Source of the DNA: Ruegeria halocynthiae
GTDB taxonomy: Bacteria; Pseudomonadota; Alphaproteobacteria; Rhodobacterales; Rhodobacteraceae
Assembly (NCBI RefSeq): GCF_900106805.1
Contig: NZ_FNNP01000001.1
Coordinates: 62,001-126,000 of the forward strand
Direction: 5' to 3'
Length of the DNA: 64,000 bases
The stretch's first letter is position 1. Every line of letters begins with the position of its first letter. Below are positions 53,528 to 63,924 of this stretch, in pieces. Both the position numbers and the translations under genes were made by a program. The notes beneath the pieces were generated by a model, which made no database searches, was not told the DNA's origin, and saw only the letters and a program-made list of their open reading frames with translations.

Positions 53528-53603
53528 GCCCCTATAGCTCAGCTGGTAGAGCAACTGATTTGTAATCAGTAGGTCCGCGGTTCGAGTCCGTGTGGGGGCA
53601 CCA
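53528..53603 (+). tRNA. tRNA-Thr(TGT)
   Basis: A 76-base cloverleaf. The seven-base acceptor stem pairs GCCCCTA with TGGGGGC (one G-T), the D arm contains AGCTCAGCTGGTAGAGC, the anticodon stem ACTGA/TCAGT encloses the loop TTTGTAA with anticodon TGT, and the T arm has GGTTCGAGTCC. CCA is encoded. The sequence immediately downstream becomes AT-rich and accessory, which suggests that the 3' end of this gene serves as an integration site. Confidence 0.97.
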
Positions 53604-53790
53604 TTGAATCGGAATAAATATAAATAATACAAGTATTTACTGGTTCACTTGTGCATTCAGACCACCCTACAGACCACCTTTTAGCTTGGCCTTCAGGCAA
53701 ATTATTACCCGTAAGGTGATTTTGGTTCACAAGGGTTTTCTAACAAGTATAGGTTGCGCAGATACACGCATTTAGAATTGGTTGAGCCGA

Positions 53791-54912
53791 ATGTCTTTGA
53801 AATCCGAAATCGAAGAAGCCAGACAATCCGTCAAAACTGATAGGTTGCAGTTATCCGTGGGCGAGGTCATCTCAATGTACCAAAACGGAGAACTCAACAT
53901 ACAGCCCGAGTTTCAGCGTTTGTTTAGGTGGTCAGAAGAGAAAAAAGCTAACTTGATTGAGTCGATATTGATCGACATCCCGATCCCGTCGATTTTTACC
54001 TACGAGAATGAAGACGGAACTTGGGAGCTTATCGACGGGCTGCAACGAATTTCGACTATTTTTGAGTTCTTTGGTGTCTTAAAAAAGCTGGAAACCGACG
54101 AGTTACTTCCGCCGTCAGCTTTGCAGCAAACAACCTACTTGCCTTCTCTAGAGAATGCAGTGTGGGAAAAATCGAATGATATTGAACATGTTACGTTCGA
54201 CGATCAAAAGCCGCTGGAAAAGCCGCAGCAACTGGCCATCAGGCGAGCCCGACTAGATGTTCAAGTTTTAAAACAACCGAGTGATGCAGAAACAAAATTC
54301 CACCTATTTCAACGATTGAACCGAGGTGGTGCTTATGCCAACGAACAAGAGGTTCGAACATGTGCGATGGTCATGGTCGCACCTGAATTTGTTAAACGTC
54401 TTAAGGTCCTTGCTGCGAACGAGAAGTTTGCAGAGATGACGTCTATCAACGACAATGCGATCCAGCGGCAGAAAGACCTAGAATATGTTGTCCGGTCACT
54501 GGTTCACACGTACCGTGACTATGACAATGTCAGTGACGTTGAGGAGTTTTTGGACGCCAAGATCATCGAAATCCTTTCGACCGAAAATGTCGATGAGTTC
54601 GAGAAGAACTTCAAATTTACCGTCGATACTTTGCACGGTCTGTTTGGCACCAAGGCTCTTTTCCCTGATGCTGGTACTGTGAACAGCCCCGGAATAAGAT
54701 TCTCTCTTCGTTCTCTTGAAGCTGTTTTTGTTGGTATCCTGCGCAACGCGACAGAAATTCAAGCATTGGGTGATCCGGTTGCGTTTGTAAAAACTAGGGT
54801 GCTGGATTTTTGGAAGCAGCCTCAAGTCGACGGCATGTCAGCGTCAGGATTGCGGGGAACGCAACGACTACAAAGGACAATTCCATTTGGTAGTCTGTGG
54901 TTTACACCATAG
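53791..54912 (+). CDS. DUF262 (GmrSD-like N-terminal) protein
   Basis: Protein of 373 residues with a DUF262 domain, the ParB/sulfiredoxin-like fold found in GmrS-type restriction proteins and many defence genes. Matching parts are SVGEVISMYQNGELNIQPEFQRLFRWSEEKKANLIESIL and the nucleotide-binding motif LIDGLQRIST, followed by LFQRLNRGGAYANEQEVRTC. The ATG at 53791 is used. It is the first gene after the tRNA-Thr and is followed directly by a HEPN-nuclease-like gene, a known companion of DUF262 proteins. AT-rich codon use differs from the core genome. A phage-defence role is likely but inferred. Confidence 0.85.
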   Translation: MSLKSEIEEARQSVKTDRLQLSVGEVISMYQNGELNIQPEFQRLFRWSEEKKANLIESILIDIPIPSIFTYENEDGTWELIDGLQRISTIFEFFGVLKKLETDELLPPSALQQTTYLPSLENAVWEKSNDIEHVTFDDQKPLEKPQQLAIRRARLDVQVLKQPSDAETKFHLFQRLNRGGAYANEQEVRTCAMVMVAPEFVKRLKVLAANEKFAEMTSINDNAIQRQKDLEYVVRSLVHTYRDYDNVSDVEEFLDAKIIEILSTENVDEFEKNFKFTVDTLHGLFGTKALFPDAGTVNSPGIRFSLRSLEAVFVGILRNATEIQALGDPVAFVKTRVLDFWKQPQVDGMSASGLRGTQRLQRTIPFGSLWFTP

Positions 54913-54929
54913 TCGTAGGCGTCCAGCAG

Positions 54930-55550
54930 ATGCTGACCGAATTCTTGAAAAAATTGAGCGATGATCGACTTTGGCGCGTGCGGGAATTATCTGACCTGCG
55001 TATTATGCACAGGAAGGCAGCCAGTGGCCGAGAAAAGGCCGCGACATCCCGGGCAATCGTTGTCTTAAGTTACGCACACTGGGAGGGATATTGTGCTAGT
55101 TGCGCTGGCACCTTCATCGACTATTTGGAGGCTAAGAAGGTTCCATATAGCTTGCTTCCACCAGATATGATGCTTGGTGCAGTGTCACATGCGCTAGACA
55201 GCTATAGGGATACCGCGGACAATTTGGTTTCACGAAGAAAGCTGTTGAAATTGCAGCAACAAGCCTACACCGGTCACATTGAGCGGTACGACAGGAGAGT
55301 AATCCTGCCACGCTCCAATCTAAACTTTGATCGGTTAAGGTTTATCCACGAGATAATAGGGGCTGAAATTCAGCCATTTCAAAAATACCGCTTAAAAATC
55401 GATAAGGAATTGGTTGCGTGGCGGCATCTAGTTGCACATGGGGAAATGTTCGCCTTGGAAAACCTGTTGGCCGCTGATCACACTAAGTTGTGCGAAGAGC
55501 TAATGTTTTTGACTAAGGACACGTTTGAACCATTTTTGTTTGAGTATTGA
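54930..55550 (+). CDS. MAE_28990/MAE_18760-type HEPN nuclease-like protein
   Basis: Protein of about 206 residues. AIVVLSYAHWEGYCASCAGTFIDYLE is the typical first helix pair of this family (R-x-x-V-L-x-Y-A-H-W-E-G), and the HEPN signature near the C-terminus reads RHLVAHGE (Arg165, His170, RX4H). It follows the DUF262 gene; a GTG start at 54897 would overlap that gene by 16 bases, the ATG at 54930 would not. The pair likely forms a two-gene toxin or defence module in which this protein cuts RNA. Confidence 0.8.
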   Translation: MLTEFLKKLSDDRLWRVRELSDLRIMHRKAASGREKAATSRAIVVLSYAHWEGYCASCAGTFIDYLEAKKVPYSLLPPDMMLGAVSHALDSYRDTADNLVSRRKLLKLQQQAYTGHIERYDRRVILPRSNLNFDRLRFIHEIIGAEIQPFQKYRLKIDKELVAWRHLVAHGEMFALENLLAADHTKLCEELMFLTKDTFEPFLFEY

Positions 55551-55903
55551 GTTTTCAATAGCTGCTCGGACATCAACGAGATGTCGACGGGATAAATTGA
55601 AAAAGCGAGGACAGATTGAGCGCGCGGATAACACTTTGCGACATTGCGGCAAAGCTGACATTCCTTGAACATGCAGTAACTATAACACTGGGCTCAACAC
55701 GGTTCGCTGTTTTTCTCAGATGACAGCAAATCGCCGCTGAGCAGTCGCTCTGTCTCGGAAATCTGTATCACCGCGACCAAAGTCTTGTGCTTTTGGGTCC
55801 TGAGCCAATTTTATACCTATGATCCAGATAGATCATTGAGAGTTCAAATTATCTTCCGCAGAATGCCGGGCATTTGAAACAACCGAATCAAAGGCCATTT
55901 TCG
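55551..55903. other. Gene-free stretch inside the island
   Basis: No coding gene or RNA is recognised in about 350 AT-rich bases. The end carries AAAGG nine bases before the ATG of the exonuclease gene, so the promoter of that gene must be here. Confidence 0.4.
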
Positions 55904-56890
55904 ATGAAATTTTTCAATCGTCTTTTTGGGACTGCAAAGGCGAAGCCCAACGAAGTCCATAAGCGCTTCAACAAAAATAGCGCAAGGCCAGAACCTGCTG
56001 ATCCCTCTTTGGAAGACGTATTGAGAGGAACTTACCGGTTCGTTGCTCTCGACGTGGAAACAGCGAATAGCGATGCGAGTAGTATTTGCCAGATCGGGTT
56101 CGCCGTGTCGGATGGACAGGGTACGATTTTGACCTTCGGTACGTTAGTCGATCCGGAAACCCATTTTGACCCTTTCAACATCGGTATTCACGGCATCGAT
56201 GAAGATGCAGTGTATGCCGCGCCTGTTTTTCCTGAGGTATTGCAAACTTTCCGTGTTTTTCTTGAGCGCCATCCACTTGTGCAACACAGCAGCTTCGACA
56301 AACGTGCGGTCAACGCTGCGTGTGACCGCTATGACATTCCTCACTTGCGTTCGAATTGGCATGACAGTGTGGTCATGGCTCGAAGGGCGTGGCCAGAACT
56401 GAAGGGAAATGGAGGGCACGGGCTAGCAAATTTAAAAGAAGTTCTCGGTCTGGAATTCGAGCACCATGACGCCATTGAGGATGCGAAAGCCGCAGCGCAT
56501 GTCGTTTTGCTTGCCGAGGAAGCGACTGGCAAGGGTTTCGAAGATTTAACCAGCAAGCAAAGCCGCGGGCCAGTAGCTAGCGAGCGGTCTCGTTCCGTCG
56601 AAGGCAACCAAAATGGCCCTCTCTACGGGCACGTAGCCTGCTTTACTGGAAAGCTGTCGATGTCGAGGTCAGAAGCAAGCACAGTCGCCGCTGGTGCTGG
56701 CATATCTGTCAAAGCAAGTGTTTCGAAAAAAATCACGCTATTGATTGTTGGGGATCAAGACCTTGAACTGCTGAACGGGCAGGAAAAAAGCAGTAAGCAT
56801 CGTCGCGCAGAAGAGCTCATTGAACAAGGCCAAGACATAAAAATTATTGGTGAAAGTGATTTCCGAAGCCTCGTCGGCGAAATCAGTTAG
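55904..56890 (+). CDS. DnaQ-like 3'-5' exonuclease with C-terminal BRCT domain
   Basis: Protein of 328 residues. The exonuclease domain has the DEDDh pattern: Exo I in FVALDVETANSD, Exo II in LVQHSSFDKRAVNAACDRY, Exo III in HHDAIEDAKAAAHV. A linker leads to a BRCT domain (GHVACFTGKLSMSRSEASTVAAGAGISVKASVSKKITLLIVGD). This combination resembles the exonuclease of DNA polymerase III epsilon-like proteins with a ligase-type BRCT. The ATG at 55904 has AAAGG nine bases upstream; a TTG 30 bases earlier is possible. It may act in island replication, repair or defence. Confidence 0.88.
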   Translation: MKFFNRLFGTAKAKPNEVHKRFNKNSARPEPADPSLEDVLRGTYRFVALDVETANSDASSICQIGFAVSDGQGTILTFGTLVDPETHFDPFNIGIHGIDEDAVYAAPVFPEVLQTFRVFLERHPLVQHSSFDKRAVNAACDRYDIPHLRSNWHDSVVMARRAWPELKGNGGHGLANLKEVLGLEFEHHDAIEDAKAAAHVVLLAEEATGKGFEDLTSKQSRGPVASERSRSVEGNQNGPLYGHVACFTGKLSMSRSEASTVAAGAGISVKASVSKKITLLIVGDQDLELLNGQEKSSKHRRAEELIEQGQDIKIIGESDFRSLVGEIS

Positions 56891-57002: not shown

Positions 57003-57581
57003 CTAGGCAGGTGGATCAGTCAGCACTGTGCTCAGTTCTGACAGCAATTTGTCGTAGCGTTCCGGTTCAGCATCTTCGGCAAGCTCTGCCTGACTGTCAG
57101 ACACCGAAAGCAGTTCGACCAACCGGATTTGGAGTTCACGGACCAGCATCATGTCGCTTTGCTCGCCGTCGCGCACTTCACCGTAAGTGTTGGCATCCAT
57201 CGGGTTTTGGCCGGGACGACCATACAATCCGATGCGTTCTCCCATTCTGGCGAACTGCGCTTCGGCGTTGGTCACAGTGTTCAAGAAGGCGCGTTTTTCT
57301 TTGGCGTCGCTTGCTGCTTGATAACCAGCCTATGCTTCGGCACGCACTTGTCGGAGAGAAGACACGCTTTCCATCACGAAGTCGCGTGGTTGCATGGATA
57401 CAGCTTCCTTGCGCAGGTCATCCAGCAGTCTCCGCTTCCATCTATAAGCGGTATCTACGGAAATTCCGAACGCGTCCGCGATAGCTTGGCCGGAATAGTT
57501 CTGCATTAACATCGGGTGAAGAAGTTGCCTAACTATATCCCAATGTTGCTCAGAGCGCAGGCGACCAGATTGCCGTACCAT
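57003..57581 (-). pseudogene. Duplicate HTH/terminase-small-subunit-like gene with a nonsense codon
   Basis: A second copy of the gene at 60284-60997, in one continuous frame from ATG 57581 but with a single TAG at 57330-57332. At that place the intact copy has TGG (RAEAWAG against RAEA-stop-AG). Both halves otherwise keep the reading frame and almost all residues (MVRQSGRLRSEQHWDIVRQLLHPMLMQNYSGQAIADAFGISVDTAYRWK; then ARMGERIGLYGRPGQNPMDANTYGEVRDGEQSDMM). The 27-residue N-terminal leader of the intact copy is missing. The damage looks recent because the remainder is well conserved. Confidence 0.85.
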
Positions 57582-57626
57582 TAATCCCGATGAGACCTCC
57601 CTACGTTGTGGCTCGAAATTTTGCTA

Positions 57627-59315: not shown

Positions 59316-60005
59316 CTAGTCTTTGAGCTCGGCGGGTGGTTCAAAAAGCAAATGCCAGCTATCCAAATTCGTCTTGTACCATGCGCCGCCATAAGGTCCG
59401 GCATATTTGGCGGGCATTGTTTCGCCGGTGTAACGAACCCCAGAAATAGGACCTGTCGACATCGGTACTTTTGAGGTATCGAAACTATGTATGCGTGTTT
59501 CGGTTGGTGCCTTTTCTGGTTCTCGATGGGGAGTGACGACCTCGATCGGCTCTGGCTCTGGCTCTGGCGGGATGGCTTTTACCGGCACAGGCTTGCGTTC
59601 TTTTTCCTTCACACCATCCAAATCGACCAATTCAGATAGCAAGGCTTCGCGCCGGTTTTGTGCGTTGTCGCGAGGGGTTACAATTCGCAGATTGCTGGGT
59701 CGATTATCAGTCGGGTCGTGATTGATATGATCAACTACGCACTCTCTTGGCATCCACCGACCAAGTGCGTACGACACAATAAAACGGTGCGTATATATTG
59801 ACTTATTGCCGCTCTTGAAATGCAGATACTGTTTACCGTCGCGGTTCTCAGAACCGAACGGCTCTTCGCCTTCCACCACGCCGTCTTTGAAACTGAACTC
59901 TTGCTCTCGAACGACGGCATCCAGAGGTGGGTAGGGTATTTCATGGTCGCGTTCGGTGGCATACTCTGATCTGAGTAGCTCTTTGACGTACACTACATCT
60001 TTCAT
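59316..60005 (-). CDS. HNH endonuclease
   Basis: Protein of 229 residues with an HNH motif: DHINHDPTDNRPSNLRIVTPRDNAQNR, as in phage and mobile-element homing enzymes. The upstream part GKQYLHFKSGNKSIYTHRFIVSYALGRW fits an AP2-like or related DNA-binding strand region that often precedes HNH_3. The C-terminal 90 residues are low-complexity, proline- and glutamate-rich (PEPEPEPIE), ending in PYGGAWYKTNLDSWHLLFEPP. HNH proteins also assist DNA packaging at cos sites in phages, which is of interest beside a terminase-like gene. Confidence 0.85.
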   Translation of the reverse strand: MKDVVYVKELLRSEYATERDHEIPYPPLDAVVREQEFSFKDGVVEGEEPFGSENRDGKQYLHFKSGNKSIYTHRFIVSYALGRWMPRECVVDHINHDPTDNRPSNLRIVTPRDNAQNRREALLSELVDLDGVKEKERKPVPVKAIPPEPEPEPIEVVTPHREPEKAPTETRIHSFDTSKVPMSTGPISGVRYTGETMPAKYAGPYGGAWYKTNLDSWHLLFEPPAELKD

Positions 60006-60283: not shown

Positions 60284-60997
60284 TCAGGAAGGTGAAGGCA
60301 ACTCTCGTCGCCTCTTTCTACCCGGTAAGGCTATTCGACACGGGAATTCTGTTTGGTTTGCGGCAGTACCCGCCCCTATCTCCAACAGTAAGTCATCATA
60401 GGGTTCCGGTTCAGCGTCTTCAGTGACCTCTACCTCGTTGTCAGAAACCGACAGCAATTCAACTAGCCGGATTTGGAGTTCGCGGACCAACATCATGTCG
60501 CTTTGTTCGCCGTCGCGCACCTCACCGTAGGCGTTCGCATCCAGCGGATTTTGGCCGGGACGCCCATATAGTCCGATGCGTTCACCCATTCTGGCAAACT
60601 GCGACTCGGCTTGGGTCACCGCGTTCAGATATGCTCGTTTTTCCTTTCGGTCTGTGGCGGAATGGTAGCCAGCCCACGCTTCGGCGCGCACTTGCCGGAG
60701 AGAAGACACGCTTTCCATCACGAAGTCACGCGGCTGCATGGATACGGCTTCTTTGCGCAGGTCTTCCAGCAGTCTCTGCTTCCACCTGTAGGCAGTATCG
60801 ACTGAAATGCCGAATGCGTCCGCAATAGCTTTGCCTGAGTAGTTCTGCATCAACATCGGATGAAGCAGTTGCCTAACTATTTCCCATTGTTGCTCTGAGC
60901 GCAGGCGGCCTGATTGCCGGACCATTGCGGCAGGTGAATATCCATTTTCGGTATTGGGTTGGGCTTGGTCGGGCGCTGGGCAGGGCTGGTCGGTCAT
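60284..60997 (-). CDS. HTH protein resembling phage terminase small subunits
   Basis: Protein of 237 residues. A helix-turn-helix lies near residues 50-80 (LMQNYSGKAIADAFGISVDTAYRWKQRLLEDL). It is followed by a helical stretch with DRKEKRAYLNAVTQAESQFARMGERIGLYGRPGQNP, an arrangement recalling small terminase subunits, although I cannot confirm membership. The C-terminal tail is basic (PGRKRRREL). The ATG at 60997 follows AAAGG by about eight bases. A near-identical but broken copy lies 2.7 kb further on. If it is a small terminase, the element may steer packaging of its own DNA; this is inference. Confidence 0.6.
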   Translation of the reverse strand: MTDQPCPAPDQAQPNTENGYSPAAMVRQSGRLRSEQQWEIVRQLLHPMLMQNYSGKAIADAFGISVDTAYRWKQRLLEDLRKEAVSMQPRDFVMESVSSLRQVRAEAWAGYHSATDRKEKRAYLNAVTQAESQFARMGERIGLYGRPGQNPLDANAYGEVRDGEQSDMMLVRELQIRLVELLSVSDNEVEVTEDAEPEPYDDLLLEIGAGTAANQTEFPCRIALPGRKRRRELPSPS

Positions 60998-61062
60998 TTT
61001 GACACCTTTTGGTTTATGGGGGGTGTTTTGCGGCATTAACCGGCATTGCCGATAAGAATTGT

Positions 61063-61073
61063 ACCCGGGTTCA
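61063..61073 (+). repeat. ACCCGGGTTCA motif, copy 1
   Basis: One of four identical 11-base copies. Its last three bases are the complement of the TGA stop of the two-helix membrane protein gene. It lies 65 bases upstream of the start of the HTH gene on the minus strand. Confidence 0.8.
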
Positions 61074-61325
61074 AAAATCGATGTCCAAACGGGCGATGAT
61101 CCAGCCCAAGACAATGATGACCGGGTAGAATATCAGCCAGCCTGCATATGTGAGGTAGTGGACCAGCGATTTTTCCTGTTCGTGGATGATAGAGACCATC
61201 GCATCCACGTCACCGCCCAGCGCATCGCGGTAGCGCGTCGGGACTATTATCTTGCAATAGGCCATCCGGCCAACCATCAGATAGAGGAGGGTGACGACGG
61301 CGAATACTAACGTGGCAGTGCTCAT
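61071..61325 (-). CDS. Small two-helix membrane protein of the RT cluster
   Basis: Protein of 84 residues beginning MSTATLVFAVVTLLYLMVGRMAY, then a hydrophilic middle (VPTRYRDALGGDVDAMVSIIHEQEKSLVHY) and a second helix WLIFYPVIIVLGWIIARL. It is 28 bases downstream of the reverse transcriptase gene. No family is recognised. Small membrane proteins next to reverse transcriptases occur as effectors in retrons and other defence systems, so an effector role is worth considering but is speculation. Its stop codon overlaps copy 1 of the 11-base motif. Confidence 0.65.
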   Translation of the reverse strand: MSTATLVFAVVTLLYLMVGRMAYCKIIVPTRYRDALGGDVDAMVSIIHEQEKSLVHYLTYAGWLIFYPVIIVLGWIIARLDIDF

Positions 61326-61353: not shown

Positions 61354-62736
61354 TTAGCCGCGTTCATCACAATGTCTTTTGAGGATGGCGCGGATAGCGT
61401 CGTTCTCCCAAGTGCCGGGGTCCGCAAAGAGGTTTTCGTGAAGGTGGCTAATCCTTGGGTGGTCAATGGTCGCGTCGGCAGAGGTTCGCAAATAATGGGA
61501 AAGTTCTGGCCCATCTGAGCGCGCAGCCGGGAAGCCCGCGCGCCAGTCACGTAGGACACGCCATGCGCTCACCGGAGGCGCATCCAGAAGCGGGTTGGCG
61601 GGTGTTATTTGGGTTGGGTCAGCAGCAGATTGTTCATAGGTCTCTAGGAGCGCGTGTAGCCGCTCCATATCCACCTGCTCTGCTATGCCAAGGCGTTCTT
61701 CCAACCGCGACAGCGCGTCTTCGGCAATGCCAATGTCATCCCGGCTGGGATCGAACCGATAGCCAAGGAAATCCATAGGCGTATCGTCGGAAAATTCGGG
61801 TTCACACATCGCAAGCGGACCAGCAGGGCACCGTTCAAGATAAACGGCCAAGGTATCTGCCATCGCCCGAGTTCCGGCAGGTGTACGCGCCGCAATGACG
61901 ATGTTGTCAAAGCAGATCATAACCCTTGCGTTCGCGCTATCCGACAATCCGACAAGCAGATGCGCGAGAACAACACCGGAGGCCGGGGAGCCTTGCATAA
62001 GGCCCTTTGGCCCGCTTACATTGTGGTCAGTTCCATATATACTCCCAGAAGAACCAAAATCCTGTTTAGCCTGCGAAGCATTGTTGGGATGGTGGGTCAC
62101 TGAAAAGTGTAAGCTTCTAGTATCAAGTGCTCGGCGGGTCACCTCCTGTGGCAATGGTAGAGAATACAGCGCATCCGGGTTGATGCTCTGATAGCAGTCA
62201 ACCACGTCGGTCTTGGCTAGGTAGACGTACCCGGAGTTCTGAAGCTGTTTGAGTTGTCTGGCGAGGTCATCGCGGCTTGCCCCGGGGATACCGAACAGTG
62301 AGCCGTTAGGCGCGGTCTGTTGGTTAATCACTTCCCGGATCAGATACTGCGCGGCCTTCAGGGCAGGTGGCAGCACGCAGATAGGACGCGAAGACCTGTC
62401 AGGTTTGGTCTTCGGATACCATCTGATCGGCGGATAGTCGGTCGCCCAAGCGTCCACCTGTCTGCTCAGTGCTCTAACCTGATCCGGGTCCGCGCTGCCG
62501 CCCAGCGCCTTATATGCTGAGACGAGTTTAGCATGGGGTGATCGCAGGAAATCACGGGTAACAGGCTGAGGGCGTTTCCCGGACATGGTGGCGGAATGGA
62601 TGGCTTCAGCCCTCTGGTGATAGACCTCATATGCCCAGCCAATTTCTCGGGACCATTTGCGGTCCATATGGAATTTTGAACCCAAGTTCATTATCGCCAT
62701 GCGCTGGGCATTGGGAACTTCACAAGGATCAGACAT
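61354..62736 (-). CDS. Divergent reverse transcriptase with a CFDN active-site motif
   Basis: Protein of 460 residues with a reverse-transcriptase palm/finger domain. Seen in order: RWYPKTKPDRSSRPICVLPPALKAAQ (motif 1/2), VYLAKTDVVDCYQSINPDAL with Asp177 (motif A), GLMQGSPASGVVLAHLL with QGSPAS (motif B), RVMICFDNIVIAA with C-F-D-N at 275-278 in place of Y-x-D-D (motif C), and MDFLGYRF (motif D/E). Asp277 keeps the first metal-binding position; the second Asp is Asn. No maturase, integrase or retron-specific domain is visible. The ATG at 62736 (MSDPCEVPNAQRM) lies nine bases past copy 2 of the 11-base motif. The group is unclear. Confidence 0.78.
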   Translation of the reverse strand: MSDPCEVPNAQRMAIMNLGSKFHMDRKWSREIGWAYEVYHQRAEAIHSATMSGKRPQPVTRDFLRSPHAKLVSAYKALGGSADPDQVRALSRQVDAWATDYPPIRWYPKTKPDRSSRPICVLPPALKAAQYLIREVINQQTAPNGSLFGIPGASRDDLARQLKQLQNSGYVYLAKTDVVDCYQSINPDALYSLPLPQEVTRRALDTRSLHFSVTHHPNNASQAKQDFGSSGSIYGTDHNVSGPKGLMQGSPASGVVLAHLLVGLSDSANARVMICFDNIVIAARTPAGTRAMADTLAVYLERCPAGPLAMCEPEFSDDTPMDFLGYRFDPSRDDIGIAEDALSRLEERLGIAEQVDMERLHALLETYEQSAADPTQITPANPLLDAPPVSAWRVLRDWRAGFPAARSDGPELSHYLRTSADATIDHPRISHLHENLFADPGTWENDAIRAILKRHCDERG

Positions 62737-62745
62737 GGTTTTTGC

Positions 62746-62756
62746 ACCCGGGTTCA
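62746..62756 (+). repeat. ACCCGGGTTCA motif, copy 2
   Basis: Lies nine bases upstream of the reverse transcriptase ATG (minus strand), where it could act as an operator or include the ribosome binding site (GGGTG). Confidence 0.8.
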
Positions 62757-62788
62757 ATTTTGCTTCGATGGGGAAATGAGTATGGTTA

Positions 62789-63046
62789 TCAGCGGGCGAT
62801 TTGGCCCGCCGCTGAAACCTGTCTCAGATGGTGCAGAAAGACATTCCCGGCAGAGTGTGCAAGGACCAGTTTTTCTCCAAACTCAATATGCATCTTTGCG
62901 GGGAATGCATCCTCCGGGTTATCAAAGTCGCTTTGCATCGTTTCGCGCAGGCCGTCGAGACGAACAAGGTATTCCGCTATTAGCGCTTGGAGCGCGTAGT
63001 TTTTCTGTTCGGTTTCAGCAGGATCATAAGGCATGTTTTTAGGCAT
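62789..63046 (-). CDS. Small unknown protein of the RT cluster
   Basis: Protein of 85 residues: MPKNMPYDPAETEQKNYALQALIAEYLVRLDGLRETM and on, all helical with balanced charge, ending in HLRQVSAAGQIAR. No membrane segment or known motif is seen. It is 52 bases upstream of the reverse transcriptase start on the same strand. Copy 3 of the 11-base motif lies 49 bases upstream of it. Function unknown. Confidence 0.65.
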   Translation of the reverse strand: MPKNMPYDPAETEQKNYALQALIAEYLVRLDGLRETMQSDFDNPEDAFPAKMHIEFGEKLVLAHSAGNVFLHHLRQVSAAGQIAR

Positions 63047-63095
63047 GGGTTTTCCATTCTAGTTGGGTTGATCTGACAGGTAGGGATTGTTTTGC

Positions 63096-63106
63096 ACCCG
63101 GGTTCA
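63096..63106 (+). repeat. ACCCGGGTTCA motif, copy 3
   Basis: Overlaps the TGA stop of the gene at 63104-63352, exactly as copy 1 overlaps the stop of the membrane-protein gene. It lies 49 bases before the next start. Confidence 0.8.
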
Positions 63107-63352
63107 AACTGCGGGATCACCGTCCAATTCTTCGAACGTGAATTTGCACTCGTAAGTCTCTTCCACCTCGCCTGTGCTGAACTTGGTTTGAACCGGATCA
63201 ACAGCATATTTTTCGAGGTAGCGTTTTATTTCTGCGGAGACGGGCACAGCAACACCGTGTTTGAACACGATAAAGTCGTCCCGTGGGCCATTCGGAGTGC
63301 GCAGGCTGTATTTCCGCCCGCTTACAAGCATGGCGCTATATTTGGAATTCAT
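63104..63352 (-). CDS. Small unknown protein of the RT cluster
   Basis: Protein of 82 residues: MNSKYSAMLVSGRKYSLRTPNGPRDDFIVFKHGVAVPV, predicted mixed strands followed by an acidic end (YECKFTFEELDGDPAV). It is not a known family to me. It follows the gene at 63367 by 14 bases and is transcribed in the same direction. Its TGA stop is part of motif copy 3. Confidence 0.65.
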   Translation of the reverse strand: MNSKYSAMLVSGRKYSLRTPNGPRDDFIVFKHGVAVPVSAEIKRYLEKYAVDPVQTKFSTGEVEETYECKFTFEELDGDPAV

Positions 63353-63366
63353 CGTTGGTGCTCCCC

Positions 63367-63687
63367 TCAGCGGCTTCGCGTGCCGCCGAATGCGCGGGCG
63401 ATATTGCTGGAACTGTTTTGCGGCGCGGGCTTATCGCCCAGTGAGATGCCTAGACGGCTTTCGATGTCGTCTCGGCGGGCTGAACGTTCATCCTTTTTGA
63501 CGTTCTGTTTGTCCCGCCCAGCGCCGCCATGGCCGACACCGAACGCCGCTGCCGCGTTTCGTTGGGCGGTAATCTCGGTTGTTTCTGGTTTGGGCCTTTC
63601 CGGGGTGTCACTTGTGCGATTTGCCAAGCCCAACCGAGCTTTCATCGAGTTGTGGTTGAACCCGGGTTCATTTTTTAAAGAGGGCAT
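63367..63687 (-). CDS. Small unknown low-complexity protein of the RT cluster
   Basis: Protein of 106 residues, probably largely disordered: rich in Arg, Asp, Ala, Asn (NSMKARLGLANRTSDTPERPKPET; DKQNVKKDERSARRDDIESRLGISLGDKP). Motif copy 4 falls inside it, encoding EPGF. The ATG at 63687 has AAGGA nine to ten bases upstream. An internal ATG at 63645 lies 14 bases past the motif but lacks a binding site. Function unknown. Confidence 0.6.
   Translation of the reverse strand: MPSLKNEPGFNHNSMKARLGLANRTSDTPERPKPETTEITAQRNAAAAFGVGHGGAGRDKQNVKKDERSARRDDIESRLGISLGDKPAPQNSSSNIARAFGGTRSR
63660..63670 (+). repeat. ACCCGGGTTCA motif, copy 4
   Basis: In this copy the flanks extend the motif to a perfect 14-base palindrome, TGAACCCGGGTTCA (63657-63670). 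It lies inside the first codons of the unknown gene at 63367-63687. Confidence 0.8.
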
Positions 63688-63717: not shown

Positions 63718-63924
63718 TTAGTCTTCACGGGCATCCGCGAATGCCTGCATTGCGGTGTCCACTTCATCGGCGAGCCAGAAAGATCGAGAGCCGATCTTGA
63801 TCGGTTTCGGCCACCGGCCATCTTTTATCAGCCGGTCACGAGTGCTTTTGCTAATCGGGCAGACTTCAAGTGTCTGAGTGCCGCTGAGGTACTTTTTGCT
63901 GAGATATTTTTTGTGAGCTAGCAT
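63718..63924 (-). CDS. AlpA/excisionase-like HTH regulator
   Basis: Protein of 68 residues with a winged-helix/MerR-like AlpA fold: CPISKSTRDRLIKDGRWPKPIKIGSRSFWLADEVDTAMQAF, with the typical sequence GRWPKPIKIG. AlpA regulators in prophages, P4-like and PICI satellites control integrase expression or excision. It is the first gene of the minus-strand cluster, 30 bases before the next start. It supports the view that the region is an integrated mobile element. No integrase is visible before the window ends. Confidence 0.85.
   Translation of the reverse strand: MLAHKKYLSKKYLSGTQTLEVCPISKSTRDRLIKDGRWPKPIKIGSRSFWLADEVDTAMQAFADARED

Follow-up and report, generated by a model that had tools for sequence, protein, structure and literature searches.

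A reverse transcriptase with asparagine in its catalytic box, carried by integrative elements of Rhodobacterales

Introduction

Reverse transcriptases (RTs) are treated as fixed at a YxDD catalytic box. The window analysed here, the whole stretch of 64,000 nucleotides from Ruegeria halocynthiae, encodes an RT in which this box reads CFDN. This locus raises the question whether an RT with asparagine in place of the second catalytic aspartate still makes DNA, and what it does for the mobile island that carries it. Where uncharacterised bacterial RTs have been tested, most proved to be defence genes, which counts in favour of a role in defence.

Results

The CFDN protein has the motifs and fold of an RT

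The RT gene is an open reading frame with an ATG start and no internal stops (Table 1); a TTG lies further upstream in the same frame at 62757. The motifs of the protein follow in the order R117, motif A (D177-VVDCY182), motif B (GLMQGSPAS), C275-F276-D277-N278 and FLGY, and the aromatic residue at D+5 of motif A is Y182. This confirmed the initial annotation, which had described an RT with its motifs in order, Asp177 and Asp277 kept, and other residues in place of the box Tyr and second Asp. The annotation had also recognised no companions of retrons, group II introns or DGRs, and none was found at the window RT; it had further held that membership in a described RT system would count against it, and no family in PADLOC, NCBIfam, PHROGs or Pfam claims the protein. 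A literature search for an RT with a YxDN box found no paper.

Pfam RVT_1 matched the window protein at E=2.8e-5 and 24.4 bits, below the cut-off of 29.6; it was assigned to the RT fold by its ordered motifs and RT palm, the Pfam score itself being below the cut-off. Group II RTs of solved structure were matched at E=1e-13 by a family profile of eight rows, which aligned the YADN box onto YADD. An AlphaFold2 model from six rows was of moderate quality (mean pLDDT 72.9, pTM 0.65), both ends (residues 1-19 and most of 418-460) and the stretch 217-241 being poorly modelled. Its best fold matches were RTs, namely GsI-IIC RT (6.4e-9), G2L4 (8.1e-9) and DRT2 (1.4e-8), with TM values of about 0.4-0.5 and an rmsd of 9.7-11. 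The placement of Asn278 at the second-Asp position of the box rests on the alignment and on a predicted strand-turn-strand around residues 270-283. The window RT differs from a canonical RT with both Asp in YxDD, the DD being present in 29/29 reference RTs.

Table 1. Features of the integrative element that carries the RT gene (positions of the window)
Feature	Position	Strand	Description
att core	53590..53603	+	last 14 bp of tRNA-Thr(TGT) 53528-53603; second copy 66046-66059, beyond the window
NsnA-like protein (PADLOC), cargo	53782..54912	+	376 aa; E=1.9e-55
HEPN protein (RiboL-PSP / MAE_28990 type), cargo	54897..55550	+	217 aa; no PADLOC match
DEDDh exonuclease with BRCT domain, cargo	55874..56890	+	338 aa
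HNH_3 endonuclease	59316..60005	-	229 aa; E=6.7e-15
Helix-turn-helix protein	60284..61114	-	at most 276 aa, start uncertain; HTH_28, HTH_23
Small gene with hydrophobic stretches	61071..61325	-	about 84 aa from ATG at 61325; end of a 162-aa frame
RT gene	61354..62736	-	460 aa; box C275-F-D277-N278; motif A D177
14-bp dyad TGCACCCGGGTTCA	62743..62756	.	directly before the RT start
Small gene	62789..63046	-	85 aa; no family
Small gene	63104..63352	-	82 aa; related genes in the elements of Aliiruegeria and Shimia
Small gene	63367..63687	-	106 aa; without a Pfam family; weakly related gene in the Aliiruegeria element
AlpA-like regulator/excisionase	63718..63924	-	68 aa; PF05930 E=8e-5, above cut-off
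Integrase	64715-65866		just outside the window

Asparagine is a trait of the RT family

Relatives of the window RT were searched in several sets of genomes. In 84,980 species genomes, an alignment of four rows picked out 187 stretches, of which five loci were confirmed, all from Rhodobacterales. These five are the RTs of Aliiruegeria (53% identity, box FADN), Shimia (49%, CFDN), Defluviimonas (38%, CTDN; catalogued under the name Albidovulum), Gemmobacter (37%, CTDN) and Pseudoroseicyclus (27%, YADN). Whole-genome searches gave matches in 6/394 genomes of the window's family with the window protein as query (the window, G243, G018, G052, one fragment and one false match), 9/390 of the order, 3/385 of the class and 1/299 of the phylum, the last being the window itself; these genome sets overlap. 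No relatives were found in single-protein scans or in an alignment scan of viral contigs, the plasmid scan gave one weak group II RT and the phage scan one weak, unannotated match. The match in G081 (L009) was dropped by eye as a membrane-protein frame, that in G258 (L008), which covers just the C-terminal part and lies where a contig ends, was excluded from the member count, and L018, which is the same contig as L006/L011, was counted once. In G501, the RT gene (L062 8017-8610 and 12382-13086) is interrupted by ~3.7 kb of inserted DNA that carries transposase-like genes, which we take to be IS66-like.

The family comprises 16 members including the window RT, 14 of them within its family or order: ten with family code f1 (the window included), four more from named Rhodobacterales and two from elsewhere in the class (G999, G881). 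As found here, it is a clade almost wholly of Rhodobacterales. The box ends in Asn in 13/16 members, reading CFDN (window, Shimia, G643, G501), FADN (Aliiruegeria, G639), CTDN (Defluviimonas, Gemmobacter) or YADN (G018, G243, G567, G173, G412), and in Asp in the three distant members G052 (YEDD), G999 (YGDD) and G881 (YVDD). Close relatives with a normal YxDD box, named in the initial annotation as the finding that would overturn it, did not appear: at 37-53% identity all relatives read xxDN, and YxDD occurs only in the distant three. Asn is a family trait, which that annotation had overlooked.

That the gene is a pseudogene or a sequencing error is a practically negligible explanation, given its open frame and the recurrence of the box in other genera, whose genomes were assembled independently, even though copies do decay, as in the split gene of G501 and the terminal piece in G258. 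In addition, dN is below dS in the sole close pair, Defluviimonas-Gemmobacter (dN 0.072, dS 0.281), which is under purifying selection.

When the box columns were removed before tree building, one branch (95/91) separated the 15 full-length members from 29 reference RTs, which are Pfam RVT_1 hits of one phylum and represent 29 of 30 loci (no row came from L048). The window RT falls in a subclade of six with support of 100/100. Three changes of the Asn label are needed on this tree. G052 (L012 9156-10466, YEDD) nests among the DN members, beside G173 (YADN) at 96/59; therefore, a return to Asp or several separate gains of Asn must be allowed, and Asn is not irreversible.

Residues of the active site are conserved

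D177, D277, R117 (the motif-2 Arg), G249 and an aromatic residue (F/Y) at D+5 are invariant in 15/15 full-length members, and the motif B Gln is present in 12/15, with T, E or P in the other three. Identity at the far end of the family is ~20%. Since the pair of metal-binding Asp, the Arg of motif 2 and the D+5 aromatic are unchanged throughout, catalysis is probably retained in the family. These residues also bear on the idea of an RT fold that no longer copies, binding nucleic acid and regulating or packaging the element. The window's subclade lacks the Tyr of the box, the second Asp and the usual Lys of motif D, as might be expected of such a protein, and dyads repeated at gene starts (see below) imply that something binds DNA across the element. 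However, a dead site would be expected to drift, and the four residues D177, D277, R117 and the D+5 aromatic have not, even at the far end of the family. We regard the non-copying fold as unlikely, the conservation favouring an apparently active RT over an inactive one.

In the parts of PMC12337344 drawn on here, the first Asp of the box holds metal and the second faces outward in the structures of G2L4, group II and HIV RTs, the box Tyr contacts the primer base, and snapback DNA synthesis by G2L4 is aided by Mn2+. The passages cited from PMC3394715 and PMC4634563 describe that changes of the second Asp reduce activity or move it to Mn2+, and that Asn occurs naturally at this position in Mononegavirales and birnaviruses; otherwise, viral RTs and RdRps always have Asp there, according to the same part of PMC3394715. 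From these structures and the studies on the second Asp, the Asp-to-Asn change appears compatible with an active but altered enzyme.

The RT is encoded in a tRNA-integrated element and keeps its place

The RT gene of the window lies in an element of ~12.4 kb integrated at tRNA-Thr and bounded by a 14-bp repeat of the 3' end of this tRNA gene. The identity of the two repeats spans 14 bp and would alone reach a BLAST E value of 3; its weight comes from the position at the tRNA 3' end. With integrase, AlpA and an att repeat at a tRNA end, the island is an AlpA-type integrative element, presumably of the P4-like / PICI-like class. A relative of the window's helix-turn-helix protein is located after the RT in the Aliiruegeria element. 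A partial second copy of this helix-turn-helix gene was seen in the window (57052-57582 versus 60396-60926, 84% identical DNA).

The gene order in RT elements is integrase, protein X, AlpA, RT, variable defence genes and tRNA. An AlpA-like gene is found near the RT and on the same strand in 12/16 RT loci, integrases of one family in 10/16, and protein X, the second upstream protein, is common to five. The islands measure 10-12.5 kb, and the gene-free gaps around the RT vary from none to about 570 nt. Among 14 RT loci tested, six have att repeats at a tRNA end (tRNA-Thr in the window and G173, tRNA-Phe in Gemmobacter, tRNA-Leu in G018, G643 and G501) and none was found in the other eight. Cargo was checked in five elements, all of which carry at least one defence-family gene (8/10 proteins overall). 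The cargo comprises NsnA-like and DEDDh genes plus a HEPN gene in the window, type III restriction-modification in Gemmobacter, a cytosine methyltransferase in both G018 and G643, and type I restriction-modification in G173. The RT thus looks like a constant core gene rather than cargo, around which the defence cargo swaps. The initial annotation had placed the RT among small unknown genes in a mobile island; the island stands, but within it the RT appears to belong to the core, at a set position, and is not just one more of those genes.

Defence-family cargo in every element tested is also what would be expected if the RT were an anti-phage enzyme working like DRT, making cDNA or untemplated DNA on infection and retained by the islands as their fixed defence gene next to restriction-modification genes that are exchanged; DRT2 as the third fold match of the model points the same way. 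Against this, the position beside AlpA is fixed while the defence genes change, and neither a known effector nor an adjacent RNA gene accompanies the RT, which is flanked in the window by only 52 nt of free DNA upstream and 28 nt downstream, Rfam finding only a tRNA. Scores against DRT-type profiles are low as well, the window protein reaching 20.3 bits at best and none of the three other members tested exceeding 34.5; NCBIfam Drt3a gave 15.9 bits versus a cut-off of 200. By profile score, the window RT does not belong to the DRT, UG or Abi RTs of PADLOC-DB 2.0.0 of 2023, later-described groups lying outside that library. A defence RT is a serious contender, if a somewhat unlikely one.

Integrase and RT are the enzymes that stay the same from element to element, which would suit a tyrosine-recombinase retroelement that the RT copies by way of RNA and the integrase inserts. 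But elements of the same class move without any RT, the islands, at 10-12.5 kb, have exchangeable cargo and ordinary tRNA att sites, and neither a terminal repeat nor an RNA structure turned up in those elements that were searched. Such a retroelement is very improbable.

Related elements without RT often carry replication-type genes in the same slot

Relatives of the window's integrase are present in 56/189 genomes of the family. For comparison, 20 loci were taken from the listed integrase relatives (50-75% identity, not strictly the top 20); these siblings do not include G018 and G173, which are RT elements, nor several others in the same identity range, and three siblings (L072, L076, L078) are shortened by contig ends. 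An RT of the window family was found in 0/20 of these loci, and AlpA in 13/20. A winged-helix, DUF3631, DUF3987 or Toprim gene is carried by 11/20 siblings (winged-helix in L071-L073, L075, L080, L081, L083, L086 and L087; DUF3631, DUF3987 or Toprim in L075, L079 and L088), and L070 has an unassigned gene pair in the same place. In 8/13 siblings with AlpA, the replication-type gene follows within about 1.1 kb; such genes are absent in 8/20, including L074, L077 and L085 although AlpA is present. In PHROGs, 4/4 winged-helix genes tested matched a replication initiation protein or DnaD-like loader weakly (E 9e-5 to 2e-3), and the DUF3987 gene matched a DNA helicase strongly (4e-60). Frames with the repeated peptide SGPMPGTPADWH were noted in L074 (4869-6450), beside other defence-like genes; they are probably a repeat array read in the wrong frame.

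Twelve of the sibling genes were used as queries against the 16 RT loci, and 0/16 had any match. The difference between siblings and RT loci (Fisher 0.0006; 0.004 against the ten RT loci with that integrase) comes from a partly circular test, the queries having been chosen by eye and supplied by 10 of the 12 positive siblings; since they came from there, the sibling count is partly given by construction, but the zero in the RT loci is not. Because RT and RT-less elements have small genes in common between AlpA and the slot, the RT and the replication-type genes occupy the same slot.

Dyads are repeated across the elements

The dyad directly before the RT start has further copies in the window at 61060-61073, 63093-63106 and 63657-63670; a weaker copy falls within the RT gene, at 62677-62690. 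TGAACCCGGGTTCA is repeated at gene starts, and the pattern GNACCCGGGTTCA is confined to the element in this genome. Six copies of the window-type dyad were seen in the Shimia element L015, and other dyads elsewhere: TGCAACNNGTTGCA in the Aliiruegeria, Gemmobacter, Defluviimonas and G643 elements, TGAACG.. in G173, TGAACT.. in G567 and G639, and CGCACCNGGTGCG in G018 and G243. With all spacings allowed, at least three copies occur in 11/16 RT loci, 6/20 RT-less loci and 0/12 control stretches (Fisher 0.04, RT versus RT-less), and eight of these 11 RT loci have a copy no more than 50 bp from the start of the RT. The RT-less related element L086 has five clear copies of another dyad, AGTACA-N5-TGTACT. 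An operator linked to the RT, first suggested by a search with a single spacing, was rejected as RT-less loci including L086 carry dyads. The dyads, as putative element-wide operators, are not tied to the RT and, not being RT-specific, were kept out of the functional argument.

Discussion

From the features above, we infer activity, substrate and function of the RT as follows. The reading we tentatively prefer, and regard as possible rather than probable, is an altered DNA-making polymerase that would serve the element's own DNA synthesis; it ranks before the defence RT, which in turn ranks before the non-catalytic fold. It is suggested because the RT sits where RT-less elements with related integrases carry replication-type genes. 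The RT would still polymerise dNTPs via its two kept Asp, perhaps with a preference for Mn2+, and would supply the DNA synthesis needed by an excised or entering element; candidate steps are priming, second-strand or gap synthesis and end repair, as for group II-like RTs acting on DNA. The more specific proposal, that an RT-fold enzyme with the motif C Asp-to-Asn change replaced the primase/initiator module of integrative islands and primes or copies element DNA, which would make it the first RT known as a DNA-island replication enzyme, is on balance doubtful. If the argument from the slot is right, DNA synthesis for a mobile island would be a new job for bacterial RTs, distinct from retro-copying and defence. 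Beyond this, Asn kept at the second Asp across ~20% identity is a natural test of the role of that Asp, in a clade related to RTs used in the laboratory.

Compared with known systems, the window RT shows no features of retrons: no retron profile in PADLOC-DB or NCBIfam matched the protein, and Rfam reported no RNA besides the tRNA. Unlike DGR RTs, for which the cited part of PMC4244168 gives an SQ motif, it lacks this motif and reads QGSPAS. With DRT/UG and Abi RTs it shares a location on mobile or defence islands and weak profile matches (Drt3a, UG4, UG26), but its scores are far under those of members, its neighbours are others and no RNA gene is adjacent in the window. UG10 RTs (formerly G2L3, with Val in the box according to the same part of PMC4244168) have a fused primase domain, as described in the passage cited from PMC8934634, and likewise link an RT to priming, although no primase is fused to the window RT.

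The best sequence and fold matches are group II and group II-like RTs, G2L4 above all, with fingers, palm and a helical thumb. Unlike group II RTs, the window RT has Asn for the second Asp, and neither intron RNA nor maturase was identified: NCBIfam group_II_RT_mat did not match the window protein and three relatives scored far under its cut-off, and Rfam found no intron over the window. According to the parts of PMC12337344 and PMC4244168 cited, G2L4 is a domesticated RT whose box has changed to YIDD and which works on DNA; it is a host repair gene, whereas the window RT is a gene of a mobile element. This element resembles AlpA-bearing integrative elements in its tRNA att site, tyrosine integrase, AlpA and defence cargo, but differs from its presumed P4-like/PICI-like relatives in having an RT in the slot where those carry initiator, helicase or primase genes. 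Finally, the polymerases of Mononegavirales (GDN) and birnaviruses (ADN) differ in that they copy RNA, yet they resemble the window RT in the box itself: in the passages of PMC4634563 and PMC3394715 cited, they are active enzymes with a natural Asp-to-Asn change in the same place and a link to Mn2+.
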